Assembly (NCBI GenBank): GCA_017550655.1
Contig: JAFZOK010000024.1
Location: 372,001-436,000 of the forward strand
Direction: 5' to 3'
DNA: 64,000 nucleotides
DNA from: Bacteroidales bacterium
Lineage (GTDB): Bacteria > Bacteroidota > Bacteroidia > Bacteroidales > UBA932
Shown here: positions 2,294-24,796 of the stretch, one piece after another
How the letters are laid out: the number at the start of each line of letters is the position of its first letter
How positions within the stretch are numbered: the first letter of the stretch is position 1
Notes under the pieces: generated by a model
What the model saw: only the letters and a program-made list of their open reading frames with translations
Told to the model about the DNA's origin: nothing
The model's database searches: none
Made by a program: the position numbers and the translations under genes

Positions 2294-3667
2294 ATGGATG
2301 ATTCGAATTATTTAGTCAGGCCACGACTTAATGACTATTACGGAATATTCTTAAATCAAGCTAAGGTGGATTTTGCAATACCTTACCTTGATGAGGATAT
2401 TCCCTTGTACGTAGACCCATTTAGGCTGTGGCAATCACCATCTTATCAAGATAACGGACTACATATTCTTTTTCAAAATGCATTCAATTGCTTGGGAAAG
2501 ATGTATTTAGAAGGACAACAAACAAAGGCAGTGGAACTATTGAAGAGAATATCAGAATGTAATGAGGTAGGACTTGGCAATTCAAAGAGTCGTAATGGTA
2601 GGAAGATTGGAGATGGATTAGCTATTGACATTCTTCGTTTGTATGAGATAATTCCATCGATTAACAAATATGGATTAAATCATCCCGAAGTAATTCAAAT
2701 GCTTGTTAATGGTATTTCAAAGGATCGTATCAGCGATATTTCGACAAATATGCTTGGTTCTTTCCTGATAGATTATACTATGCAGGAGTGCCAAAAGTAT
2801 GGAATACCTACTGAGAGATGTGATATTGAATATTTGGACGTTAAAAGCATGAGTATGAGGAAAGATAATTGTGAACTTCCCATTAATCCACAAACGAAAC
2901 AGGTATTGTGGTTGGTACCAAAGCGTTGGTTAAGAAAAACGATGTGGCTTAACGACGATGATTATTTGAATCATTTTCTAGTGAACCGCATTGAATCCCT
3001 GGGAAGGGGAGAAATAGACATTGTGACCTTTAATAGACAAAACTATAGTATGGTAACTGAATATATCAGCGCTAAGGAAAAAACTGCTGTTGACTGCAAG
3101 AATGATCCATTGTTTGGGCAAATACCTGTTTTGTCAGCAAAGAGAAAGTTGTCCACCATCAAAAAGTTACCCACAGGAAAGGAGGACAATGCAGACAAGA
3201 AATATGAAGCAGAATTATGTCCGTTGTTAGCATCCATACTCTATCCGCATTTGGATTTTGCACAACCTCAAAGTCGGACGGAAAGCGGGACTCAGATAAG
3301 GGATTTAGTGTTTTACAACAACACTTCATACGAATTTCTGAATGATATGAAAGAGAAGTTTGGTTCACGACAACTTGTGGTGGAACTAAAGAATGTAGAC
3401 GAAGTGACCAAAGAGCATATTAATCAGTTGAACAGATATTTGAATCCTGTGTTTGGTTCGTTTGGCATTATTTTGACTAGGAACAAGCCTAAGAGAAGTG
3501 TGATGCAACACACTATAGATTTATGGTCTGGCCAAAGAAAATGTATCCTTATTATGGATGACAGTGATTTGGAACTTATGGTGAACGTATATGAAAGTAA
3601 ACAACGTGATCCCATAGAAGTGATAAAAATGAAATACGTTGATTTTACCAGGAAATGTCCAGCATAA
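2294..3667 (+). CDS. PD-(D/E)XK nuclease-like protein
   Basis: A 457-residue protein without a family name I can give. The C-terminal third looks like a PD-(D/E)XK nuclease core. There is an acidic residue in the helix Y-E-A-E-L-C-P-L-L (about 304-312), then aspartate in I-R-D-L-V-F (D337), then L-V-V-E-L-K-N (E364, K366), followed by a helix with I-N-Q-L-N-R-Y-L. The N-terminal 270 residues are a separate conserved-looking region beginning with D-Y-Y-G-I-F and containing V-D-P-F-R-L-W. It lies 47 bases after darG and overlaps the next gene by 13 bases, so co-transcription is likely. A DNA-cleaving role in a defence island is inferred from the motif and neighbours. Confidence 0.65.
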   Translation: MDDSNYLVRPRLNDYYGIFLNQAKVDFAIPYLDEDIPLYVDPFRLWQSPSYQDNGLHILFQNAFNCLGKMYLEGQQTKAVELLKRISECNEVGLGNSKSRNGRKIGDGLAIDILRLYEIIPSINKYGLNHPEVIQMLVNGISKDRISDISTNMLGSFLIDYTMQECQKYGIPTERCDIEYLDVKSMSMRKDNCELPINPQTKQVLWLVPKRWLRKTMWLNDDDYLNHFLVNRIESLGRGEIDIVTFNRQNYSMVTEYISAKEKTAVDCKNDPLFGQIPVLSAKRKLSTIKKLPTGKEDNADKKYEAELCPLLASILYPHLDFAQPQSRTESGTQIRDLVFYNNTSYEFLNDMKEKFGSRQLVVELKNVDEVTKEHINQLNRYLNPVFGSFGIILTRNKPKRSVMQHTIDLWSGQRKCILIMDDSDLELMVNVYESKQRDPIEVIKMKYVDFTRKCPA

Positions 3668-10389: not shown

Positions 10390-10494
10390 GGGGGCATGCT
10401 GTTGTTTTTTGGGAGTATCTGATTTTTTTGCCACGGATTCTGTTTAATGTGTTAAGGAGTGCGGCGAAGGGGAATAGGAGTAGAATTTGTTTTT

Positions 10495-11523
10495 ATGAAA
10501 AAGCATAATAGTTTTTTTACTAAGATTCCATTAGCTTTCTGGCTGGTGATTTCTGTCTTAATTCTTTTCATTTGTGCTCTTCCAGTGTTATTTGTAAAGT
10601 TTAGCATAATTGATTTTACAAGTACAGGGCAGATAGGTGATACAATTGGAGGAATAATGGGGCCTTTTATCGCAATTTTGGCTGCATTACTAACTTTTAT
10701 TGCATTCTGGGCTCAATATGATGCAAATAAAGAGTTAATTAGAGAAAATGAAAGAAATCATTTTGAGAATCGTTTTTACAAAATGATGGATATTCATCTG
10801 GATAATACTAAAAGTTTAGCTACTGACAATAATAGTAATACTTCTGTTTTCAAAAAATGGTGTTCAGAAATCGAGAGTTACTACAAAAGCTTTACAATTC
10901 CTGGGTTGATAAATGAGTTTGAAGATTACGTGCAAAAAAAACTCAAAGATGAAGTTCATATGAGCGGATTCCTAAATTATGTAGATGGCTTGTTGAATGA
11001 TGACGAGACTCGATTTAAAGTTATATTTGATATTTGTTATTCATTGTTCTATACAGCGTCGGTTGTGCAATATATGCCGAAAGATGAACAAAGCGAGTAC
11101 ATTAATAATTTTGCTGTCCTGTATAATGCTTTTATGAGTGAAGAGAAATTCATTAAGTTGGATAATAGGTCGCCTAAGAATGAAATGTTAGGTCGTTATT
11201 ACAGGCACTTATACCAGATTATTTATTTGATTGACGATCAGCCTAATGATTTGTATCAAAAAAATAGTTGGCGAGAAGATTATTTTAATTTGTTACGTTC
11301 ACAAATGTCAGATTATGAGCAATTACTTCTATATTATCACTCACAATCATCTTTTGGAGAAAAATGGGATAAGTCAAACTATATTGAAAAGTATTATTTG
11401 ATTAAAAACATACCATTGGAATCAATTCATATATCAGCAGGCATTCCCCCAATTCAGCGGTATAGTAAAGTAATTAAGGAATTAGAATCAAGAGGTAAAC
11501 AATTCTTTGATGTGGTTGTTTGA
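10495..11523 (+). CDS. putAbiC-type phage abortive infection membrane protein
   Basis: The ATG at 10495 gives 342 residues; the upstream in-frame start would only add polar residues before the membrane helices. Two transmembrane segments (about 13-35 and 53-74) enclose G-Q-I-G-D-T-I-G-G-I-M-G-P, then F-W-A-Q-Y-D-A-N-K-E and E-N-R-F-Y-K-M-M-D-I-H. This layout marks the family called putative phage abortive infection protein (putAbiC, PF16872). The 250-residue cytoplasmic tail is helical. The family is named by similarity to lactococcal Abi proteins; the mechanism is unknown. It is the last gene of this cargo module. Confidence 0.75.
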   Translation: MKKHNSFFTKIPLAFWLVISVLILFICALPVLFVKFSIIDFTSTGQIGDTIGGIMGPFIAILAALLTFIAFWAQYDANKELIRENERNHFENRFYKMMDIHLDNTKSLATDNNSNTSVFKKWCSEIESYYKSFTIPGLINEFEDYVQKKLKDEVHMSGFLNYVDGLLNDDETRFKVIFDICYSLFYTASVVQYMPKDEQSEYINNFAVLYNAFMSEEKFIKLDNRSPKNEMLGRYYRHLYQIIYLIDDQPNDLYQKNSWREDYFNLLRSQMSDYEQLLLYYHSQSSFGEKWDKSNYIEKYYLIKNIPLESIHISAGIPPIQRYSKVIKELESRGKQFFDVVV

Positions 11524-12149: not shown

Positions 12150-13349
12150 ATGAGAGTAATATCAGTAATAAACGATGGACTGCTTCAGGCAACAAACGCA
12201 TTGCTTGAAATGACCATTGGTGAGTATCTTGACATAGGATTAAGAATACTCCATAATAACAAATACCAAAGAAAAAGGGTGAGCAGGTCTTCCTCGGTTT
12301 ATTCATTGTTAAATGAAGATATGAAGAAGTTATGTTCAATCCCTACTATTGTGTTGGCATTTACCGATGAAGCTCAAGGCATTCATTTGCAAGAGGACAT
12401 GTCTGCAGAGGAATTGATGAGATGCCTAAATAGCGATAGTTTAATTATCTTAGACGGACTTCAACGTACTTATACGATGAAGGATGTAAATTCTGATTTA
12501 TTGTTCCCCGAAGAAGACAAAAGGCGTTTCAGAGAGCATACAATCAGAATAGAAGTTTACTGTGGTTTGTCTAAAACGGGTGTACTTTATAGGATGCTTA
12601 CTCTTAACACTGGACAAACGCCAATGTCTAAGAGGCACGAAATAGAAATACTTTATTCTAGTTATCGAGAGAGGAACTTAGACGGCATTAGTTTTAATAC
12701 ACAAGTTGATACGAATAATGAACCAGGTATTGACGTTTATGATTTTGATAATGCAATTGAAGGATTCAATTCTTTCTTAGAGTCTGATGAATCTCCAATG
12801 GATCGTTTCGATATTTTGGATGTCATACAAAGGATGGAAAAAATAACAGAAGATAATTATCAAAAAGACTTATTCGAATATTACATAAACTCGTACAATA
12901 GTCTGGCTCATCATATTTACGAACAGACAAACCACTGGGTAATCAGCAGCGAAGAAAAAAGAGACTTAGGCAGCATTTATGCTAAGGATATTCCTGCATT
13001 TTTCAACAAGGCACAAACGATGTCCGCTTTTGGTGCTGCTTTGGGGAAAATCCTCTGGGATAAATCAGACCGTGGTTTTGGTAATATCTCAGACAGAATT
13101 AAGAATGTACGGTTTAGCGGAATACCCAATGAAGCTATACTGATGATGCAGAAGATGCTTAAGGTCGTGAGGGAAGGTGCGAAAAAAATTGGTGTATCCC
13201 AGCGTTTGTACTTGAAGTTCTTCTTCTTGAATTTATTGACTGAAGGAAGCGAGACCTACTTATTAGTTGAATCTTCTATTGATAAGGCAAAAATAGATTA
13301 CGACCATGCAATTATCATACAACCACGAAAGGAAAGCCTTTTTGATTAA
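12150..13349 (+). CDS. DGQHR-like (DndB/DUF262-type) domain protein
   Basis: A 399-residue protein. The segment S-L-I-I-L-D-G-L-Q-R-T (residues 97-107) fits the D-G-x-(Q/H)-R motif of DndB/DGQHR and DUF262/ParB-like proteins, here D102-G103-L104-Q105-R106. It is followed by M-L-T-L-N-T-G-Q-T-P-M-S, as in those families, where the conserved Asn-Thr-Gly-Q stretch lines the same pocket. The C-terminal half is helical. Proteins with this fold occur in DNA-modification and restriction systems. Its last 44 bases overlap the next gene, so the two are almost certainly co-translated partners. Confidence 0.6.
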   Translation: MRVISVINDGLLQATNALLEMTIGEYLDIGLRILHNNKYQRKRVSRSSSVYSLLNEDMKKLCSIPTIVLAFTDEAQGIHLQEDMSAEELMRCLNSDSLIILDGLQRTYTMKDVNSDLLFPEEDKRRFREHTIRIEVYCGLSKTGVLYRMLTLNTGQTPMSKRHEIEILYSSYRERNLDGISFNTQVDTNNEPGIDVYDFDNAIEGFNSFLESDESPMDRFDILDVIQRMEKITEDNYQKDLFEYYINSYNSLAHHIYEQTNHWVISSEEKRDLGSIYAKDIPAFFNKAQTMSAFGAALGKILWDKSDRGFGNISDRIKNVRFSGIPNEAILMMQKMLKVVREGAKKIGVSQRLYLKFFFLNLLTEGSETYLLVESSIDKAKIDYDHAIIIQPRKESLFD

Positions 13350-14385
13350 GGATGGTGAAGAAGAGTTGTGCCCTGTTGACTTCAAGTTTTCTGACCTTGA
13401 CCATGAGGGGAAAGTTATAACTATAGAGGAGGCGGAAAACTATAACTTTGCAGAATATTATAAAAATGATGTAAAAGAATTGGCCTACAGAACAACCAAT
13501 GTGAATGTAGGAGCTGGCGGAGGCGCACCGCAGCGAATAGGGTGGATGTTGCCCATTTCCATGTTGACAACAGAAGATGAAGATACTCTTGAAAAAGAGC
13601 ATGTTAATCAATATGTGTTTTTTGCATATTGTTATTTGCTTCGTAAAGATGAAATCGAGGGTGAACTGATAAATGGAAAGAACTTTGATGAAGTTCTAAC
13701 TAAAAAGTATCCTAATGGTTGCTTGTTGGTTGTAAACAATGATAGAATGCCCAATGGCATTTCGTTAAAGAGTCTGGAACTATCCTTGGCTCGGAATGGT
13801 TTTTTTTCTAAACCAACGGGATATGCAAATCCATTAATCAGTGAAAATGGCGACTTAAACCTTATTCCTGCCACTGAGGTGTTGAACCCAGACAATACGT
13901 ATGTAGATAGTTATATTGATACTTACCTTAGTCAATATGCATACAACTCAAATCCTTTTATACGATTCTTCTATCTGTACCAACTAGTCGAGGTTTTATT
14001 AGATAAGGAAATGATTGAGATATTGAAAGATTTTATCTACTTGTTGGAACACACTAAAACTTCATATAGAACAGCAGAGACTGCGCTTCAGAAGCATACA
14101 GAGTCTGAACGATTTTATAGAATTGTACAGAATTCGGGTCTGAATGTGGCAAATTATGCTGAGTTTGATAATTTGTGCTATACTTTTCTCAATTTGGGTG
14201 AAGGTGAGGATAGGAAACCAAACCCGGAAAGTATTTATCAAGTGAGGAATCATATCGTTCACAGATTTAGAAAGGCAGCGAGTGACGAAGCTGCGGTTAA
14301 ATCTATTTGTGATCATTTAGAGCTCTATCTTTATGATTTGTTGATTTGCTATAAGAAGCCGAAAGTGAATAGGCCTGTGGAATAA
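13306..14385 (+). CDS. Protein with C-terminal HEPN-like RNase motif
   Basis: A 359-residue partner of the preceding gene (44-base overlap). The first 100 residues include a glycine-rich loop G-A-G-G-G-A-P-Q-R. The last 150 residues are helical and end with Y-Q-V-R-N-H-I-V-H-R-F, where R314-N315...H319 matches the R-x4-H signature of HEPN ribonucleases and abortive-infection effectors. The HEPN assignment rests on that motif and the helical surroundings only. Together with the DGQxR protein this may be a two-gene sensor and effector, or a front part of the STAND cluster that begins 49 bases downstream. Confidence 0.55.
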   Translation: MQLSYNHERKAFLIKDGEEELCPVDFKFSDLDHEGKVITIEEAENYNFAEYYKNDVKELAYRTTNVNVGAGGGAPQRIGWMLPISMLTTEDEDTLEKEHVNQYVFFAYCYLLRKDEIEGELINGKNFDEVLTKKYPNGCLLVVNNDRMPNGISLKSLELSLARNGFFSKPTGYANPLISENGDLNLIPATEVLNPDNTYVDSYIDTYLSQYAYNSNPFIRFFYLYQLVEVLLDKEMIEILKDFIYLLEHTKTSYRTAETALQKHTESERFYRIVQNSGLNVANYAEFDNLCYTFLNLGEGEDRKPNPESIYQVRNHIVHRFRKAASDEAAVKSICDHLELYLYDLLICYKKPKVNRPVE

Positions 14386-14434: not shown

Positions 14435-17400
14435 ATGGAGAAACGTGTGATTAACCAGAACGGTCCAAAACCTCTTTATGTAGAGAAGAATAATGGTATC
14501 ATCTATGTAGGTGACTACCTAGAAGAGGCCAGCTCTGCATTCAAGGACGGCTCATTTGAGTTATATGAGTATGCTCCCAAGATCGACCCGCCGTTGAAGA
14601 GACCCGAAGTGGGACTGCTGAAAGAATGGTTGGCTCAAGAAGCATTATCAGAAAGCTCTTCAAGGTTAGCCTTACTTTACGGAAAGGCAGGAATCGGAAA
14701 GTCTGTAGTAATGCATGACTTATTGGTGGAGCTTCAGACGAATCCTGACTATTTGGTTCTTGGGCTAAAATCTGACCAGATAGAATTCGTCGATACGAAT
14801 GAGTTGAGCCGTAGTCTTCATTTGGCTCAGCCTCTTGAGGTGGTCGTAAAAGAGATGGCCCAACAGTATAAGAGAGTGGTTTTGCTGATAGACCAGATAG
14901 ATGCTTTGTCTTTGTCTCTGTCATCAAACCGAACCCCTTTACGTTCGCTGCTGAAGCTAATTAGAAAGATACAACTTATTCCTAATGTCGGGATTATAAT
15001 ATCTTGCCGTCCATACGATTTGGAATATGACCCGTTGCTTGACAATCTTAATATCAAGCAGAAATGGGAATTAAAGGAGTTCAGTAAGGAACAGGTGTTG
15101 CAGGTGCTTAAAGCACACCAAATCAAGGATCGTCTAAACGATAATTTAATTCGGTTTTTGGGAAATCCGCTGCATTTGTATCTTTTCTTGAAAATACGGC
15201 CGGAAGAACTGCTCACAGACCCTTTGTCAACTGATTTGTTGTACCATCAGCTGTGGAGAAAGTATGTAACTGACGATAGTGAGAGAAAGGTGGATAAACA
15301 GCGGCTTTTGGCACTGCTGGATGCGCTTGTGACTACGATGTATGACAGGCAGGAGCTATCGGTACATATAAGGACGTATGAGACAGAATATAGTACAGAG
15401 CTACAGTATTTGTTCACGAACGAGATTCTTTTGCTCAGCAAAAGCGGTCAAATACAGTTCTTCCATCAAACCTTGTTTGACTATGTTTATGCCCGCCGTT
15501 TTACGGAGAAAGGCCTTAACCTATTGGATGTATTGAAAACGCAGCATCAAGGTCTGTTCTTGCGTGCGGCTGTAAAGAGTATTTTGACATTTCAGAGGGA
15601 ACAAAACACTAAAGAATATATCAAAACAATAGGCCAATTGCTTTATGCAAAGGATGAAAACGGTAAGGACATCTACCGTTATCACTTGAAGTCTTTGGCT
15701 CTGAGCAATATGGCTTACTTTGAAAGACCTTTGCCAGAAGAACTGATTTTTATATCGCGAAAAGTTTTTATGGATAAGGTTTATATGAATGTGCTCTTCG
15801 AATCAATATATACCCCCCATTGGTTCAATGCTATTTGGTGTATAATAGATGAGACAGGGGGATGGAAGGCATTAGACAAGGATTATAAGGAAAAAGCAAT
15901 GCAGATGTGCAGAAGGACACTTTGGCTGGCTACCGAAGATGTGCTCGCTACTGTTGAACGGGAACTTGACTGTCAAAATACTGAGGATTGCAAGTATTTG
16001 GCCGACTTGTTGGAATACTATGAGCTTAACTGTGGGAGTGAGAGGCTGATTGGTTTTTATAATAAGCTTGTGAAGAGCAGACTACCCTTGGAGCATATTC
16101 ACTTATTGAAGAACATAATGAGGGATAATCCTGCATTTGTTTGCCAGGAATTGAAGGAGAATATGCGACTCCAATTGGCAGAGAAAGAGACTAAGTATAT
16201 TCATCGGATAGGTTTCAGCCACGAGGTGGAAAACCTGTATGAAGAACTTTTGAAAAACCATCACGATGAAGGGGTCCAGTTGTTGGTTGATATTCTAACG
16301 ATGGTCTATGAAAAGACCAAGTTTAGATTAGAAGGAGCAGAAATATACAATTCTTCAGAGTTCTTCAGTTTCCAAAAGACCACGGGTGGCCATTTTGTGA
16401 ACAACTTTGTAGAAGACGCAGCAAATATACTTATAGACGATTTCTTGAGCCGCATCGATGACGAAAAGACGAAGCACTACATTATGTCATTCTGCAAGAG
16501 TGAACATGAAGTTTTTGTATTCATTGCGCTGTACGTCTTTACCGAACGTCCTGAGAAGTTCAAAGATGAGGTGTATGACATCATAATGAACAGGTCGGTT
16601 CTGTCAAATGCTCCAAGCTGGGTGGAATATCAGACAGTTGAGGCACTTGAAAAGTCATGGGGGGGGATGAGCGATGAACAGAAGAAAGCGATTATCGATA
16701 GGATTCTGGCAATTGATGATCTGGGAGAACACCTGCTATTTAAGGATGCCGTTGAGATGAGACTGCAATATGGGCATCCCCTCTTGGATGTTGACTTGCA
16801 TAAAGGAAAGGCTCTTGAAATAATTCCAATAGATGAGTTGAGAAGGCTGTCGTGGTTTGCCTACCAAGAGCGTCAGCGAATAGACAGGAAATTCAACTCG
16901 AAGCGTTTGAAAAACAGTAAGCCGTCAAGTATGTCTTCACATTCCGGATGGACTTCCTTGAGGGAAGACCAGGGGCTGAAGATGAACAATGAAACGTGGC
17001 TGAATTCAATGCGTGCCTATGACAAGAACCCCTTTGAATGGGATAAGCCATCATTAACAGGACAGTGCCATCTTTTTAGGAATGTCGTCAGCAAGGAGCC
17101 GGATAAGTTCTTAGAACTCATTCACGAGGCTATAAAAGATGATTGTATTCTGCTGGCTTATCCGCAGGCAGGGATGCAGGGGCTTCTTGATGCCGGGCGT
17201 AAAGACGAGGCAATGCAAGTATTGAAGGGAATACTGGAAGTGATTGGTTATGATGTAAACTCAACAGTTCGTGGATTCAGTTTACATTCATTGTTGTTTG
17301 CCCTTAATGATATTGCCAAGACCGGACCTGTACCGGAGATTGTCTTTGCATTGTTCTGTAACACGGTCCTGAATGCCAAAGAGCCAGAAGAAGATACTCA

Positions 17401-18361
17401 TCAAGCTGAGAAAGACGTTTATAACGTAGGGATGAATCAGTCAAGGGGGAATGCCGGCTATATGCTTGTAGAGTGCGCAAGAGAGGAAAAATATGGGGAG
17501 CGAATTTTCAGCACCTTTGAGCAAATTGCAGAGACCTCCTCTGTGTATACCAGGGGAGCAATCCTTCTGAATATGGCAGCGCTAAACTTTGTGGATAAAG
17601 ATAGGAATGTTAGACTATTCAAAAAACTCTTATATGACTATAATCCGAGACTAATGGCGATGCCGGTCCACAATTATAATCCTTTGGTTTATTTCGTTAA
17701 TTATGCAGCTAGCGAGCTGATGGATTTTTTCCAGCATGCGGCAGATTGTCCTGAATGTTACCGGGAGCAAGTGATAATACTGTGGCTGGCATGGTCACAT
17801 AATAACCACGACGAACGTATTAAAGTGCTTCTGGACAAGATGTGTGATAACAGTGAGGATGCGAGAATCTCCTTGATGGAATTCTTTTGTACACTGAACG
17901 AGAAGATTGGCGAGGATGCCGTCTGTTATATCATACACTTTATGGCTAAGCAATTTGACTCGCCAAGGATGGGGGAAGTATGCGATAATCTTTTCCACTA
18001 CACAAAGAATTGGCCGGAGGACGTTACTCGAAGAGTGGCCGAGGCGTATGTTTCTTCCCCGCTGAGCAAACACAAGACAAGAACGTTTATCGGTTTTCTG
18101 GCAGGATATGCCATCGTCAACCCAATACAGACACTCATTTGGCTGGAGCTGGTAATGGGGGACAACATCCCAAACGAATACCATACTTGGAGCAATGTTG
18201 TCGATGTGATTATTCAGTCATATAACGGTATCAAGCAATTTAATGATATCAGTTGTCAAGATGCGTTGGAAAACGCGATGGACCTGATAGATACCATTAT
18301 GCAGAATCCGAGCAACAAGAATCTTATCGGCAACTTTATCAATAAGTTGGATAATGAATAG
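14435..18361 (+). CDS. STAND-type NTPase with N-terminal signalling motif
   Basis: A 1,308-residue protein. Residues 6-26 carry I-N-Q-N-G-P-K-P-L-Y-V-E-K-N-N-G, the motif also found in the next two genes. The ATPase follows: Walker A G-K-A-G-I-G-K-S (83-90), Walker B V-V-L-L-I-D-Q-I-D (148-156), an S-C-R-P sensor-like segment (about 193-196), and a winged-helix part ending F-F-H-Q-T-L-F-D-Y-V-Y-A-R-R-F. The last 950 residues are helical repeats, the usual ligand-sensing part of STAND/NLR-like proteins. It overlaps the TIR gene by 8 bases. By analogy with bacterial NLR-like defence proteins, it would oligomerise on sensing a trigger and recruit effectors through its N-terminal motif; that is inference. 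Confidence 0.8.
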   Translation: MEKRVINQNGPKPLYVEKNNGIIYVGDYLEEASSAFKDGSFELYEYAPKIDPPLKRPEVGLLKEWLAQEALSESSSRLALLYGKAGIGKSVVMHDLLVELQTNPDYLVLGLKSDQIEFVDTNELSRSLHLAQPLEVVVKEMAQQYKRVVLLIDQIDALSLSLSSNRTPLRSLLKLIRKIQLIPNVGIIISCRPYDLEYDPLLDNLNIKQKWELKEFSKEQVLQVLKAHQIKDRLNDNLIRFLGNPLHLYLFLKIRPEELLTDPLSTDLLYHQLWRKYVTDDSERKVDKQRLLALLDALVTTMYDRQELSVHIRTYETEYSTELQYLFTNEILLLSKSGQIQFFHQTLFDYVYARRFTEKGLNLLDVLKTQHQGLFLRAAVKSILTFQREQNTKEYIKTIGQLLYAKDENGKDIYRYHLKSLALSNMAYFERPLPEELIFISRKVFMDKVYMNVLFESIYTPHWFNAIWCIIDETGGWKALDKDYKEKAMQMCRRTLWLATEDVLATVERELDCQNTEDCKYLADLLEYYELNCGSERLIGFYNKLVKSRLPLEHIHLLKNIMRDNPAFVCQELKENMRLQLAEKETKYIHRIGFSHEVENLYEELLKNHHDEGVQLLVDILTMVYEKTKFRLEGAEIYNSSEFFSFQKTTGGHFVNNFVEDAANILIDDFLSRIDDEKTKHYIMSFCKSEHEVFVFIALYVFTERPEKFKDEVYDIIMNRSVLSNAPSWVEYQTVEALEKSWGGMSDEQKKAIIDRILAIDDLGEHLLFKDAVEMRLQYGHPLLDVDLHKGKALEIIPIDELRRLSWFAYQERQRIDRKFNSKRLKNSKPSSMSSHSGWTSLREDQGLKMNNETWLNSMRAYDKNPFEWDKPSLTGQCHLFRNVVSKEPDKFLELIHEAIKDDCILLAYPQAGMQGLLDAGRKDEAMQVLKGILEVIGYDVNSTVRGFSLHSLLFALNDIAKTGPVPEIVFALFCNTVLNAKEPEEDTHQAEKDVYNVGMNQSRGNAGYMLVECAREEKYGERIFSTFEQIAETSSVYTRGAILLNMAALNFVDKDRNVRLFKKLLYDYNPRLMAMPVHNYNPLVYFVNYAASELMDFFQHAADCPECYREQVIILWLAWSHNNHDERIKVLLDKMCDNSEDARISLMEFFCTLNEKIGEDAVCYIIHFMAKQFDSPRMGEVCDNLFHYTKNWPEDVTRRVAEAYVSSPLSKHKTRTFIGFLAGYAIVNPIQTLIWLELVMGDNIPNEYHTWSNVVDVIIQSYNGIKQFNDISCQDALENAMDLIDTIMQNPSNKNLIGNFINKLDNE

Positions 18362-19577
18362 AGATTATCAGCTGGAGCAGCTTCGGAGTTTGTTGATGGC
18401 TCCAGAGTTGAAGTCGGGACTTTTTCTGATAGATACGGATTTGACCGATGAGGAGATTGAAAAATATCTAAAAAGCTTCGGGATATTTTCGTATGTGAGA
18501 GAAGCATTGTTTCCTTCATCCGAAGGCTCTGCGTTTGAGATGTTTGTCGTTGGATTGAGTTATAAGTGTGAAAGCCCAGACATATTAACTCGTCGTAAAC
18601 AGTTGTTTGCGGCTGAAGGCCGTAGGCTGGGTGGTGTGTTATATAGTATGGTTATTGAGATGATGGGGGCTCTATGTAGGAGCGACATTTCTGTATTACA
18701 CATCAGCGGCGAGCTTGATTTGTCTTCATTGAGTCATGAAGAATTGTGTATATTGAAAGAGTCGATGGCTCATCATTATAATAGGATTATCGTATTAAGT
18801 AAGCAGAAACACGTTGTGGACTCAGAATATGACAATCTCATACGGCGAGTTTCACTTAAAGAACAAAAGTATAGTTTTAGTTATATGGAGAATGCGATAG
18901 ATAAGGTTCATATCACTTATAAACACGACGATGAACACGAAGAGGCTTTGAATGCTGTTTTGGCAGGCCTCGACAAAGAAAGTATTCCATATTCGATAGA
19001 CAGGTATGACATTCTATATCGATCAAGTATAGATGAATATGAAAAGGAAATAGGTCAAGCGGACAGAGTGATTATGTTTGTGATTCCCGATTATCTCAAA
19101 TCTTTGGATTGTATGTTTGAAATGACTGAGATCTTCAAAAATGGTTATGTAAAGGAAAGGACCTTCCCAGTTGTGGACTTGGGGGAGATGAAAAGGAATG
19201 GCGACAGTCTGAAACAATTGAAAGACTATTGGCAAGGTGAGAAAGTCAGAAAGCTTGAAATGATGAAGACCGAACCCGGTGGTTCAGAGTTCATTATGCA
19301 AGAGACCCGTAAAATAGATACGATCATCAGTACTCTTGATAAGTTTTGGTTATTTATCTGTCGTGAGTCAACAGGACAATATGACAAACTAATCGAGAAT
19401 GATGCAGCATTGTTGGTAGAGGAAATTGGAAAAGCAATGACAACACAAACAGGTTGTTCGGACGAAGCATTTGTCGCCCCAGGTACTACAAGACCACAAA
19501 GTAATAGAACTACAAACCAGAATGGTGCAAGGTCGGTATATGTGGAAGAGAACAACGGGACTTTAATCATAAATTGA
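18354..19577 (+). CDS. TIR-domain effector with C-terminal signalling motif
   Basis: A 407-residue protein. Residues 184-300 form a TIR domain: K-V-H-I-T-Y-K-H-D-D start, S-I-D-R-Y-D-I-L-Y-R-S-S-I-D-E-Y-E-K-E-I-G, then V-I-M-F-V-I-P-D-Y-L-K-S-L-D-C-M-F-E-M, with E256 at the position of the NADase catalytic glutamate. The N-terminal 180 residues are an unrecognised domain. The last 22 residues contain N-Q-N-G-A-R-S-V-Y-V-E-E-N-N-G, matching the STAND N-terminus. TIR effectors usually cleave NAD+. The start overlaps the STAND gene by 8 bases and the PLD gene starts 4 bases after the stop, so this is one operon. Confidence 0.8.
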   Translation: MNRDYQLEQLRSLLMAPELKSGLFLIDTDLTDEEIEKYLKSFGIFSYVREALFPSSEGSAFEMFVVGLSYKCESPDILTRRKQLFAAEGRRLGGVLYSMVIEMMGALCRSDISVLHISGELDLSSLSHEELCILKESMAHHYNRIIVLSKQKHVVDSEYDNLIRRVSLKEQKYSFSYMENAIDKVHITYKHDDEHEEALNAVLAGLDKESIPYSIDRYDILYRSSIDEYEKEIGQADRVIMFVIPDYLKSLDCMFEMTEIFKNGYVKERTFPVVDLGEMKRNGDSLKQLKDYWQGEKVRKLEMMKTEPGGSEFIMQETRKIDTIISTLDKFWLFICRESTGQYDKLIENDAALLVEEIGKAMTTQTGCSDEAFVAPGTTRPQSNRTTNQNGARSVYVEENNGTLIIN

Positions 19578-19581
19578 AACT

Positions 19582-20769
19582 ATGGCTGACGAACTGCATA
19601 ACGAGGAGGAGTTTTATCAAGACAAAGGATGGCCTACGGAAGAGTATTCTTTATGTAGGTATGAGTTGCCGGTTTTAGGAGAAGATGCAGAGGGGGCGGA
19701 TTTCGACCAGTTTGCGTTGATAACTAATGCTATTTATCCTTATATACGGCTGACGAAGAGACGTGGTAATAGCCATATCCCTTGTGGCGGTGCTATATCT
19801 CCTGCAACTGATGGGTGGTTTGCGAATAAGCCCGAGCAAGAGCGTAACAAGTGGTGCCCGAAGATAGCCTGGGGCTTTGCTGCTGTATTCCTTGCAAACC
19901 TCAGATATGATGCGGTTCAAAAAGACTATGTTCTTCTCAAGGATTTAAGTGAACTGATTCGGCATTATTACGAGAAGTACTTGAAAATGTACTTACAGTG
20001 CCATAATGGGTTAAAGTATAAAGGCCATTCCCCATATCAAAAGGAGCTGAATTTCCTGGAAGAGCATTGGGCGTTGATAAAGTCCTTTTGGGAGAAGTCG
20101 GAACCGTTAAAAGTGTATGCTGACTTGTATGATTACGCTAAGGATGCGGAAACAGATTATGAAAACTTCCTTTACGCACGCAAGGAAGCAATTCTGACCC
20201 GGAGAGAATTGAAGGCTGATTCGCTAAATGATAAAGGAGGGAATCGGATAATAAACCAGAATGGAGAAAGATCCGTTTATGTCGAAAACAATACTGGCAC
20301 TATTGTTATCGGGGCGAATAATGAGAAATCAGTTGCCAAGACGTACAAGAATGAGGCCTATTTTAATGATATTGCAACTCAAATCATTAAGGATTTGGAC
20401 GAGGCAAAGGTTTCAATACTTGTTGCTATAGCTTGGTTTACAAACCAGCGTATAGCTGACAAACTGGTTGAAAAGTTCAAGCAAGGGCTAGATGTAAAAG
20501 TGGTTTTTTATGATGACCACACCAATTCTAAGTTTGGTGCCAATATAGGTGGTATTCCTTTTAAAGCAATTCGTGGGACACGAGGTGGAATAATGCATAA
20601 TAAATTTTGTGTGATAGACAATCAGAAGGTGATAACGGGCTCATATAATTGGTCGGATAACGCAGAGAATAAGAATCATGAAAATGCGGCATTGGTTTAT
20701 GATAATGATTGCGCATCCTCATATTCTGTGGAATTTAGAAGATTGTTTAATTCGTCAGAAAAGGAATAG
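19582..20769 (+). CDS. PLD-family nuclease-like effector with internal signalling motif
   Basis: A 395-residue protein in three parts. Residues 1-215 are an unrecognised helical domain. Residues 223-243 hold I-N-Q-N-G-E-R-S-V-Y-V-E-N-N-T-G, the motif shared with the STAND and TIR proteins. Residues 255-390 form one phospholipase-D-type domain: V-A-I-A-W-F-T-N, then I-M-H-N-K-F-C-V-I-D with H339, K341 and D346 in the H-x-K-x4-D pattern, then G-S-Y-N-W-S. One-HKD proteins act as dimers and are often nucleases or phospholipases. A second effector arm of the same system is the simplest reading. Confidence 0.8.
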   Translation: MADELHNEEEFYQDKGWPTEEYSLCRYELPVLGEDAEGADFDQFALITNAIYPYIRLTKRRGNSHIPCGGAISPATDGWFANKPEQERNKWCPKIAWGFAAVFLANLRYDAVQKDYVLLKDLSELIRHYYEKYLKMYLQCHNGLKYKGHSPYQKELNFLEEHWALIKSFWEKSEPLKVYADLYDYAKDAETDYENFLYARKEAILTRRELKADSLNDKGGNRIINQNGERSVYVENNTGTIVIGANNEKSVAKTYKNEAYFNDIATQIIKDLDEAKVSILVAIAWFTNQRIADKLVEKFKQGLDVKVVFYDDHTNSKFGANIGGIPFKAIRGTRGGIMHNKFCVIDNQKVITGSYNWSDNAENKNHENAALVYDNDCASSYSVEFRRLFNSSEKE

Positions 20770-20772
20770 GCG

Positions 20773-21265
20773 GGCATCGAGCACGTGGTGGACGGGAAGC
20801 CGCAGAAGAATGACGTGCTGCAGTTCATCGGCCGCACGGTGCAGCTGGAGCAGCGTAACCAGGCGATGAACTATTTCATCGGCGTGCTGGTGGAGAAGAT
20901 GCGGGAGGCGGGGATCTACATGGTGCTGGTGAAGGGGCAGGAGCAGGTCAGTGCTACGAGCGTCCGCTGTGGCGGTCGTGCGGCGACGTGGACCTGTTCT
21001 TCGATGCGGAGAACTACGAGCGGGCGAAGGGGTTCCTCTCGCCGCTGGCGGTTGAGGTGGAGTCAGAGGAGAAGCGTAAGAAGCATCTGGCGATGACCAT
21101 CGACCCGTGGTTGGTGGAGTTGCACGGCCTGATGCCAACGGAGATTTCGGAGCGTATCAACGCGGGTGTGGAGCGGGTGCAGAGCGACATCTTCGCTGGC
21201 GGTGGCGTGCGGGTGTGGAAGAACGACGGTGTGGATGTGCCGCTGCCCATACAGATGACCCCAAA
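20773..21265 (+). pseudogene. NTP_transf_5-type nucleotidyltransferase fragment, GC-rich
   Basis: A GC-rich block starts 3 bases after the PLD stop. It reads G-I-E-H-V-V-D-G-K-P-Q-K-N-D-V-L, then L-V-K-G-Q, and after a one-base shift near 20945 C-Y-E-R-P-L-W-R-S-C-G-D-V-D-L-F-F-D. This is the same pattern as L-L-K-G-Q-G-I...R-N-C-G-D-V-D-L-L in the intact family member at 48630. The N-terminal 60 residues and the C-terminal half are missing. Its 3' part is fused in frame to the AT-rich gene that follows. Confidence 0.7.
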
Positions 21266-23255
21266 CCTGAAGATAGTCATTAGGATACAGCAACTGACTA
21301 TTTTGAAAGACCTGTCTTCTGGCAAGAAAAACTATATTCTGAATGACCTTTGCAGGATTGTTGAGGGTGCTTCAGAAAGTGAACTGACGGCTGCTTACTA
21401 CAGTGTGCTGAGTTTATTATGCTTGACGGAGAATAGGATACAAGCAGGTTTGAATTATCATAAACTGTCTATTGAGAAACGCAATAAGGATAGCAAGGGC
21501 GTTGATGGGCTGGAAGAACTATACAAAAAGAGTATCTGGATGTTGCCTCTTCGTTTCACAAAGATAGAAGAGTATGATGCATGGCTTCAAGACTTTTCTG
21601 CGAAGCCTTTTGAATATGATCATTCGGACAGTGAGATATGCGAGCATTGCTATTTGGCAGGATACCTGCTTGTAAATAAGGAGTGGAAGGACAAGGAGCA
21701 AAGTGACATCATAGCAGGACTGCAACTTTTATTGGATAAAACTATTGAGCATAATTGTCCTGAAATGACGGTTTCCATCCTGTTTCAAATGATGGAGACG
21801 TTCAATAAAGCAGGTCGATTTGAGGACACAAGAAAGGTCTTTAACGATTACTATGGGAAGTACGATGAATATCCCTTGGCGAAAGTGCTGTTAAACGGCT
21901 CGATGGCATATGCTATTTATTCAAATAAGGCGGCAGAGAGCAAAGAGTCTTTGCCCTATATTGAAGCTATGCAGATTGCGGAATATGGAGAGGTAATACC
22001 AAGTGTCCATCTCCATCTTGGGCAGATAAAGGCTTATGTGACGTGTGAGACTGATGTGGATGAAGGAATCTCACAGTTGAAGAAGGTCATTGACTATGTT
22101 CAGAAGCCCGGACATTTGACTACACTCTTTGAGTATTATCAATGTCTGGGGGAGTTGTCACTAATGTATTGGAATGCCGGAGTAAGGGATAGGTCTGTTG
22201 AAGTGCTTTCAGAGTGTGTTGATTATGTGACTAGCGAGGAAGGATTGAAGTCACCATATGCCAAGACATATCTCTGTCTGTGTGATTGCTTGTTAGTGAA
22301 TTACCTCTACGAATTGAATGTTCAAGTACTTCCTGTAGATCAGGCAAGGCCCTATATGGGTATGTTTACTGAGCGGGATGCACAGGGTCTCGATAGCTTA
22401 TATTCGATTGACAGAATCTTTACGTCTAGTTATATTATGTACCAGATATGTAGCGCATTAAACTTGGAAAAGATGAGGACAGAATGGGCTTATAAAGTGT
22501 TAGAGGCTATTAAGGGCAGGGGAGAGAATAAAGAGATACATTATATCACTACACTCTTACTTCCCATTTTCCTGAAAGAGCAAGACTTTGATGCTTTGGC
22601 TCGTGTAGCAGAAATATCTAGCGTTTCACAGGCAATTACTTTTGAGATGCATCCTGAGATGAAGCATGCAAATACGGATTCGGATTTTATAGAATATGTG
22701 GTGACTCCAGTACTGTTTTTAGCACTTCGTATGGCTATTACTGGAGATAAGAGTGGGTTGGAAAAGATAAAAAACATACTGTCGAATTATCAGCCAGTCA
22801 ACAATTATGAAGTAGTGAGCAAGGTGATTGACGTTCTGGAGAGAAGAGATTATGATAAGGCATTTATTAACGAGGTTCACAAACTGGATGTGAACAAGTT
22901 CTACCCAGTATATATATTCGCCTATCTAATTACAACACTTTCCGTGGATTCGTATCAGGCTTTTAAACTGATAATGGATGTGATTGTAAGACTTGAAAGC
23001 GATTTGGTTAGGGTTATAGGAGGTGACGTAAAAACCGTCATCAATGAGTTCATTGCATCTTTCTGGCGGTCACGTATTCTAACTAAGTCCGAAGATTTTA
23101 TAAACTATTCATTCCTTGCCAGTAAGGGTATCAAGCTGATAGATGAATATGAAGGGAAAGATAATCAAGCTAACCACACAATGTTCGTTATTAGGCACCA
23201 TCTGCCATATGGGGTGTACTTGAATTATGAGCAAGAGAAGTGGTTGGATACTTGA
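20988..23255 (+). CDS. Chimeric ORF: nucleotidyltransferase remnant fused to helical-repeat protein
   Basis: An open frame of 755 codons, but its first 90 codons are the GC-rich nucleotidyltransferase remnant (C-G-D-V-D-L-F-F-D...V-P-L-P, to about 21255). From I-Q-M-T-P-N-L-K-I-V onward the composition becomes AT-rich. The remaining 660 residues are helical, TPR-like repeats resembling the sensor half of large STAND-type proteins, with no ATPase motif. The native 5' end of the AT-rich gene therefore appears replaced. Whether the hybrid is expressed is unknown: the ATG at 20988 lies inside the remnant. Bases 23256-23479 contain no recognisable element. Confidence 0.5.
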   Translation: MDLFFDAENYERAKGFLSPLAVEVESEEKRKKHLAMTIDPWLVELHGLMPTEISERINAGVERVQSDIFAGGGVRVWKNDGVDVPLPIQMTPNLKIVIRIQQLTILKDLSSGKKNYILNDLCRIVEGASESELTAAYYSVLSLLCLTENRIQAGLNYHKLSIEKRNKDSKGVDGLEELYKKSIWMLPLRFTKIEEYDAWLQDFSAKPFEYDHSDSEICEHCYLAGYLLVNKEWKDKEQSDIIAGLQLLLDKTIEHNCPEMTVSILFQMMETFNKAGRFEDTRKVFNDYYGKYDEYPLAKVLLNGSMAYAIYSNKAAESKESLPYIEAMQIAEYGEVIPSVHLHLGQIKAYVTCETDVDEGISQLKKVIDYVQKPGHLTTLFEYYQCLGELSLMYWNAGVRDRSVEVLSECVDYVTSEEGLKSPYAKTYLCLCDCLLVNYLYELNVQVLPVDQARPYMGMFTERDAQGLDSLYSIDRIFTSSYIMYQICSALNLEKMRTEWAYKVLEAIKGRGENKEIHYITTLLLPIFLKEQDFDALARVAEISSVSQAITFEMHPEMKHANTDSDFIEYVVTPVLFLALRMAITGDKSGLEKIKNILSNYQPVNNYEVVSKVIDVLERRDYDKAFINEVHKLDVNKFYPVYIFAYLITTLSVDSYQAFKLIMDVIVRLESDLVRVIGGDVKTVINEFIASFWRSRILTKSEDFINYSFLASKGIKLIDEYEGKDNQANHTMFVIRHHLPYGVYLNYEQEKWLDT

Positions 23256-23809: not shown

Positions 23810-24796
23810 ATGAAATCTTCTGTAACCTTACTAGATCTTGATACTATTGAGCTTCATTATTGGCTAGATGATGGTTCACACACTATGGATGCTCTTGTTT
23901 TTAATAAATGCGAGCATGAGTTTTTGAGTATTGTTCAGGAACTTTCCAACACTTTTAGAATTAAAGTCGATGTTGAAGTAGAGCCGTTGGGTGAAGGTGG
24001 TTTAAGGGCGTGGTTTAAACTCTATCGCAACAACAAAGATGCTATAAAAGTTGCTTTTCTGATATTCTTGCTGACAGATTTATTGTGTACGCCACTAAAA
24101 ATAACACTTGAGCATGTTACAAGAGAAGTATTGGAACGAGTATTCGAGGACCCTGAGATTAAGAAACTAGAGGAAGAAAAGAAAAAGGCAGAATTAGAAT
24201 TCGAGATTACCACAATAAAGTCTGAGACAGAGATTCTTTGTAAGAACATTGACGAAAACAAATTACAAAAGAAGAGGTCGAATTACTATGAGACGGCAAG
24301 TCAATGTAAGAAGTTAGAAAAAATAACTATAACAGCTACTGATGCTACAAAGGGAAAAAAGTATGTTAGTAGGGATGTTGTTTCGAAGGATTTCCCCCTT
24401 TATATCATGACTTCTGATGATTTGGATCCAGATAAGGATGAAAATGCTATTATCGAGATTATTTCTCCTGTCCTAAAAAAAGGAAAGTATCAATGGTTGG
24501 GGATATACCAGGGAGAGGTAATACAATTCAAAATGAAGTCTAATGAGTTTAAGACTTTGGTGTTAACGGGACAAGTGCCTTTCAAAAACGGGTCTTCAAT
24601 AACATGTCTGCTCGTACGCAACAAGAAAATTGATAGCAACGGTGAGGTCAAGATAACTGGGTATGAGGTTTTAGAAGTATATAACTTCTTTGAGAATGAC
24701 ACACCTATTGAGACACCAGAGGGAAGACGCAGAAGACAGAGGAAAGAGACTGAAAAAAAACAATTGAGTTTATTTGACTTGGAAGAAAACGTATAG
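23810..24796 (+). CDS. Membrane-anchored coiled-coil protein, unknown
   Basis: A 328-residue protein. The first 75 residues are a small alpha-beta region (W-L-D-D-G-S-H-T-M-D-A). One hydrophobic helix follows at about 80-98 (V-A-F-L-I-F-L-L-T-D-L-L). Then comes a charged coiled coil (K-K-L-E-E-E-K-K-K-A-E-L-E-F), then a beta-rich domain of 150 residues, and a basic tail with E-G-R-R-R-R-Q-R-K and the ending Q-L-S-L-F-D-L-E-E-N-V. The arrangement suggests a membrane-bound protein whose C-terminal domain binds a ligand or nucleic acid. No family could be named. Confidence 0.55.
   Translation: MKSSVTLLDLDTIELHYWLDDGSHTMDALVFNKCEHEFLSIVQELSNTFRIKVDVEVEPLGEGGLRAWFKLYRNNKDAIKVAFLIFLLTDLLCTPLKITLEHVTREVLERVFEDPEIKKLEEEKKKAELEFEITTIKSETEILCKNIDENKLQKKRSNYYETASQCKKLEKITITATDATKGKKYVSRDVVSKDFPLYIMTSDDLDPDKDENAIIEIISPVLKKGKYQWLGIYQGEVIQFKMKSNEFKTLVLTGQVPFKNGSSITCLLVRNKKIDSNGEVKITGYEVLEVYNFFENDTPIETPEGRRRRQRKETEKKQLSLFDLEENV

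Follow-up and report, generated by a model that had tools for sequence, protein, structure and literature searches.

Three consecutive genes of a Bacteroidales bacterium, located in a 64,000-nucleotide stretch of contig JAFZOK010000024.1 (positions 372,001 to 436,000, hereafter the window), encode a NACHT STAND ATPase, a TIR-domain protein and a PLD-family protein that resemble one another only in a 21-residue element. The element is conserved and under selection, sits near the N-terminus of the STAND protein and, in relatives of the locus, mostly at the C-terminus of the protein encoded next, and changes partners between loci. Judging from these sequences, it is probably a plug through which one infection sensor would switch on several different killers, the tag being kept while the partner varies.

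The presumed sensor, a protein of 1308 amino acids (14435..18361; all features of the three genes lie on the + strand), is a NACHT ATPase with a NACHT domain at residues 78-227 (14666..15115; Pfam NACHT, 1.6e-11), a Walker A motif (GKAGIGKS) at residues 83-90 and a Walker B motif at residues 148-156, and it matches the PADLOC candidate PDC-M54A (5.5e-10). Its ATPase region also matches PDB chain 9n00_A, an AAA family ATPase, with a profile E value of 1.4e-31 over profile positions 76-500; the likeness to both PDC-M54A and 9n00_A is limited to this ATPase part, and the N-terminal element lies outside it. The 9n00_A entry is a solved chain of 1523 amino acids with related entries 9n01 and 9yix, and a search of the open-licence literature by entry code found no paper for it.

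The presumed NADase effector, of 407 amino acids (18354..19577; Pfam TIR_2, 1.1e-6, above the cutoff), has a TIR domain at residues 185-273 (18906..19172). This domain contains, in the sequence SLDCMFE, a glutamate (Glu256) that is invariant in the 11 rows of a TIR alignment and is the presumed catalytic residue, so that the protein is classed by sequence as a putative TIR NADase. The presumed second effector, of 395 amino acids (19582..20769; Pfam PLDc_2, 1.5e-21), is composed of an N-terminal domain with no assigned function (residues 1-222, 19582..20247) and a PLD-like domain of the NucT/mitoPLD type (residues 268-388, 20383..20745; PDB relatives 1byr and 6ehi (NucT)), whose single HxKx4D motif at residues 339-346 places it in the PLD superfamily. 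The TIR gene overlaps the STAND gene by 8 bases and is separated from the PLD gene by a 4-base gap. An earlier, sequence-only reading of the window had described these genes, their coordinates and their products in the same way, and the catalytic features it named, E256 and the H-K-D motif, are both present.

The shared element spans STAND residues 6-26 (14450..14512, INQNGPKPLYVEKNNGIIYVG), TIR residues 387-407, which are the last 21 of that protein (19512..19574, TNQNGARSVYVEENNGTLIIN), and PLD residues 224-244, between the N-terminal and catalytic domains (20251..20313, INQNGERSVYVENNTGTIVIG); the sequence-only reading had placed the STAND copy exactly and the other two, given as 386-407 and 223-243, one residue off. 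The consensus of the element is xNQxGxKSIYIExNxGxIxI. The best 21-residue ungapped BLOSUM62 scores of the STAND-TIR, STAND-PLD and TIR-PLD pairs are 64, 67 and 79, respectively, far above the maxima of 44, 42 and 43 reached in 40 shuffles per pair. In BLASTP comparisons, the element is the sole significant match of each pair (E values of 1e-4, 2e-5 and 2e-7 in the same order) and the next-best match has an E value of 0.53 or worse, which agrees with the statement that the rest of the three proteins is unrelated. Three profile searches of the bacterium's own genome (about 88% complete) found no fourth copy at the thresholds used, and none of 31 aligned copies of the element has a Pfam match.

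We compared 25 loci, namely the window, a plasmid relative from Segatella copri (L020), whose STAND protein is 49.6% identical over the full STAND length, and 23 loci on genome contigs. The element is present on 16 of the 25 STAND proteins: all 13 in the close clade (identity of roughly 50% or above), two at 33% identity (L034 and L035) and one at 26% (L038). Wherever the DNA downstream of an element-bearing STAND gene is readable, the next gene bears the element as well (14/14 loci), and this gene encodes a TIR homologue in 13 loci, the window included, and a membrane-type peptide in one (L038). Loci L030 and L031 end within the STAND gene, their downstream side being outside the 14, and the P. 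pasteri locus, which is both L021 and L036, was counted once. The copy forms the C-terminus of 12 of the 13 TIR homologues, and in L042 it is followed by 91 residues; the homologue with this extension is encoded at L042:13926-15416. L028 and L036 have a split TIR frame, and in L026 and L032 the TIR open reading frame (ORF) does not include the N-terminal domain. Both the layout proposed for the element, at the N-terminus of a sensor and the C-terminus of an effector, and the proposal that it is shared by function are supported.

Nine of the 23 loci on contigs (L037, L039-L041 and L043-L047; the N-termini were read in seven, L045 and L047 being partial) showed no element, and neither did three further distant STAND proteins (G190, G349 and G083; G748 is the L037 locus). 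In L037, the TIR-like fragment that follows the STAND gene lacks the element too. STAND proteins often have an effector domain in their N-terminal slot. The element is preceded by about 130 residues with hydrophobic stretches in L029 and L031 and by about 170 residues in L034 and L035, the copy lying at 130-173 behind the extra N-terminal segment in these four proteins, and distant relatives that lack the element begin with other sequences where their N-termini were read. Because of these N-terminal variants and the other N-termini of the element-less relatives, the element seems to take, or to go with, the N-terminal slot that is often given to an effector domain.

Across the 31 aligned copies (alignment A4, from which the L038 STAND copy was left out), both glycines are invariant (31/31), Q3 and N14 are nearly so (30/31 and 29/31), and positions 9, 11, 18 and 20 are hydrophobic. 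In the TIR alignment (A5), which comprises 11 of the 13 TIR proteins and in which the L028 row stops before the element, the mean pairwise identity is 0.50 in the element, 0.26 in the linker that precedes it and 0.59 in the TIR core. The sequence features by which to judge whether the element would lie outside the globular domains are its terminal position, the variable linker and the domain boundary. Its pN/pS ratio over six close motif pairs is 0.23 (pS 0.43, pN 0.10), which shows that the element is under purifying selection; one of the six pairs, the TIR copies of L034 and L035, has too few changes to tell. Residues shared between copies are encoded by the same codon in 4/10, 4/12 and 6/14 cases across the copy pairs, where codon usage predicts 4.6, 5.0 and 5.4. 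As synonymous codon sharing is no higher than codon usage predicts, a recent duplication is unlikely, and the copies are old.

Third bearers are rare, with two cases (the window and L029) among the 11 close loci that are readable. The gene that follows the TIR gene in L029 encodes a protein of 245 amino acids that shares 48% identity with the initial part of the window PLD protein and ends at the element, followed by a stop codon and by no PLD match downstream; this third copy is divergent (10.0 bits) yet at the equivalent position. Because the L029 homologue ends there, the element marks a domain boundary behind an N-terminal module that occurs with or without a PLD domain. Among 393 genomes of the order, the module was found only in the window's own genome, and a fusion to PLD is known solely from the window. 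The expected co-occurrence across homologous loci thus holds for STAND and TIR genes with the element and is not general for the full set of three. These data also bear on whether the window PLD protein is an effector of this STAND protein at all: its N-terminal domain may be the functional part, perhaps a regulator, to which the PLD domain was joined incidentally, as an element-bearing homologue without PLD and a fusion seen only once would suggest. The intact HKD residues and the retention of the element next to the PLD domain argue against such an accident, which we regard as possible but doubtful.

The partner changes in Bacteroides fragilis. Directly after the distant STAND gene of L038 lies an ORF of 61 residues, in which a stretch that looks hydrophobic by eye precedes a terminal NRTINISGDKSVYVEKNEGDITIE. 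The product could be a minimal membrane effector; it stands as an isolated case, and the plasmid collection contained no relative. The peptide (L038:13896-14078, strain Q1F2) weakly resembles the N-terminus of PADLOC PDC-M43A (E 0.00013). In the STAND tree (21 rows, L044-L047 left out), L038 falls outside the 15-row TIR clade, on long branches that leave its exact place unsure, and the presence of the element there consequently needs two changes.

A profile search with the motif alone pointed to two further arrangements. In genomes G519 and G600, a variant element forms the end of a TIR/NPHP3-like protein, so assigned from weak Pfam matches, and another forms the start of the next gene. In G600, this next gene encodes an NB-ARC/TPR STAND protein; in G519 (L085:6701-10896), the TIR/NPHP3-like protein with its C-terminal variant is followed by a 253-amino-acid protein with an N-terminal variant, recognised only from context, and by a large ATPase/TPR protein. 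The side-by-side position of the copies at the expected ends speaks in favour of these matches. Motif profile searches of genomes gave 5/295 with profile A1, 3/395 with A3 (phylum) and 32/393 with A4 at the looser limit of 0.05. Except for the own genome, P. pasteri (G145), G519 and G600, the matches are taken as chance, a verdict that rests on the contexts of loci L049-L083, with G143, G184 and the second G771 place not among them, and on a pattern scan only for G087 and G140. The G340 match lies within an ordinary-looking 535-amino-acid ORF, and no STAND gene was seen near the G766 match in the part of G766 listed. The last residues (NINQYGEKTINIENINGNKNININ) of a ParA-like protein (identified by eye) in G074 (L087:2244-3566) resemble the element; the middle of this protein presumably resembles an effector-associated domain. 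Searches for viral carriage confirmed none of 38 pattern matches for the STAND alignment A2 and neither of 2 matches for the PLD protein, and two motif DNA patterns gave 0 matches each.

Among described systems, the layout is closest to that of bacterial amyloid signalling sequences (BASS), in which, according to the excerpted text of PMC7889193, a short motif is found at the N-terminus of an NLR and at the C-terminus of the adjacent or overlapping effector, as in NLR and BELL pairs. This layout of sensor N-terminus and adjacent effector C-terminus occurs in all 14 readable loci, with the exceptions in placing described above. Excerpts of PMC7889193 and PMC9815663 assign BASS motifs mainly to filamentous actinobacteria and cyanobacteria, and also to archaea, and name BELL as the usual partner, with CHAT or TIR less often. 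The TIR partners are thus a point of likeness, whereas the Bacteroidales host and the set of partners (TIR, PLD and membrane-type peptide in place of the usual BELL) are points of difference. Pfam recognised TIR and PLDc_2 in the partners and no BELL domain, no search with a dedicated BELL model having been made. The element could be a minor or unclassified BASS motif.

A single NLR with two effectors and one motif is described in fungi for PNT1/HELLP/SBP and the sigma cluster (het-eN/SESA/SESB), where, in the excerpted part of PMC5485727, the NLR is thought to activate two different effectors through the shared motif. The motif there is another one, and HeLo-like proteins and a putative lipase take the effector role that TIR and PLD proteins are presumed to have here. 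The expectation that one sensor with two effectors would be uncommon holds only with qualification, as the principle is published for fungi, and BASS motifs on TIR proteins are mentioned in the excerpt of PMC7889193. The Q-x-G of the element (Q 30/31, G 31/31) recalls RHIM, but the GxQxG segment named for PP and RHIM in the excerpt of PMC5485727 is absent, as none of the 31 copies has a glycine two places before the Q. The excerpted description of effector-associated domains (EADs) of bacterial conflict systems (PMC8195603) is similar in that a small non-catalytic adaptor is coupled with effectors, but EADs are described there as small domains and the element has 21 residues. No description of the motif or of the STAND-TIR-PLD set was found in the open-licence literature, judged mostly by titles and abstract openings; as far as could be checked, the new features are the motif, its occurrence in Bacteroidales and its pairing with PLD and membrane-peptide partners.

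We favour, with moderate confidence, the reading that the element is a homotypic adaptor, probably of the amyloid type, by which one NACHT sensor would address several effectors. The invariant glycines, the near-invariant Q3 and N14 and the hydrophobic positions fit short strands broken by turns, as amyloid signalling motifs have them. HET-s repeats, as excerpted in PMC7889193, also have about 21 residues and a conserved glycine. Several observations weigh against this reading. The first profile, built from 7 copies, yielded most element copies, but it missed those of L034 and L035, which were recognised by inspecting protein ends, and it scored the L026 TIR copy (13.5 bits) and the L029 third copy low. 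The element is internal in the L042 TIR homologue and in the window PLD protein, a departure from the usual BASS layout. The STAND copy of L038 is weak (13.9 bits, E 0.15) and lacks the Q and the first G, and the G519 and G600 matches are singly at chance expectation (E 0.0015-0.004 per genome, 395 genomes). Furthermore, STAND motifs resemble the TIR motif of their own locus more closely than those of other loci (p 0.0083 for 12 of the 13 TIR loci, 0.0188 without L034), but the effect disappears when the phylogeny of the STAND proteins is taken into account (partial r 0.22, p 0.14); covariation was accordingly rejected as proof of cognate pairing, and STAND-TIR coevolution is unproven.

A wider reading, which we hold tentatively and rate somewhat short of an even prospect, is that 21-residue plugs of Bacteroidota move between unrelated STAND proteins (NACHT, NB-ARC/TPR) and effectors (TIR, TIR/NPHP3-like, PLD, membrane peptide), and that one sensor could thereby fire two enzymes at once, in a branched amyloid signalosome outside the filamentous bacteria from which such systems are known. 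It is less probable because of the chance-level G519 and G600 matches and the weak L038 STAND copy.

The sharing and conservation data would also suit a non-amyloid segment for homotypic oligomerisation or docking, such as a short beta-helix or beta-sandwich with a fixed number of strands around a STAND ring. Among PDB sequences, the element matches only parts of the T4 long tail fibre P34, with E values of 2.3 to 3.3 that amount to chance. As the layout is that published for amyloid signalling pairs, in the excerpt of PMC7889193, we consider such a segment unlikely. It is quite improbable that the element serves as a tag for some shared third partner (a scaffold, protease or localisation factor) through which the three proteins meet indirectly: its occurrence near an N-terminus, at a C-terminus and in mid-protein would suit a tag, but in the sampled loci it is confined to STAND proteins and their neighbours, a relaxed pattern, written to fit the known sites, giving 30 matches in 980,494 six-frame residues (window, L020, L025-L047), all of them at those sites. 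An origin by chance, or by recent duplication of a short piece of coding DNA, is suggested by the shortness of the element and made practically negligible by the shuffle test, the conservation across loci, the codon comparison and pN/pS.

For the favoured homotypic adaptor, we propose the following model. Upon detection of an intruder, the NACHT STAND protein would oligomerise and cluster its N-terminal elements. The clustered elements would recruit the matching elements of the TIR C-terminus and of the PLD protein by homotypic stacking of beta-strands, most likely on an amyloid-type (beta-arch) template. TIR family proteins consume NAD+, and PLD family proteins are nucleases or hydrolyse lipids. 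Clustering would activate the TIR protein (NAD+ consumption) and the PLD domain (nuclease activity or lipid hydrolysis), and the activated effectors would bring about abortive infection.

The window lies in a dense defence island, with further systems on both sides of the STAND-TIR-PLD genes: DarT/DarG (552-2246), PDC-M36A (2294-3667), a putative AbiC (10459-11523), DzbA/DzbB (Dazbog; 12150-14385), upstream of the STAND gene, and PDC-S42 (23810-24796). Dazbog was considered as a part of the STAND-TIR system and rejected, as DzbA/DzbB had no match at E 1e-4 beside the STAND relatives of 28 other loci, some of which have little upstream DNA. The gene after the PLD gene (20785-23255) may be frameshifted, with overlapping ORFs at 20785-21096 and 20988-23255; the latter has no Pfam match, and the start of the gene presumably resembles a nucleotidyltransferase-family protein.

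In the excerpted text of published surveys, prokaryotic NLR amyloid signalling is placed mainly in filamentous actinobacteria, cyanobacteria and archaea (PMC7889193; PMC9815663). If the reading favoured here is true, a Bacteroidales motif family with changing partners and small genes would extend the idea to common gut and oral bacteria. The 16 sensor copies and 16 partner copies of these loci would form natural sets of cognate motifs on which seeding specificity can be tested, and the loci would allow asking why one sensor fires two effectors.

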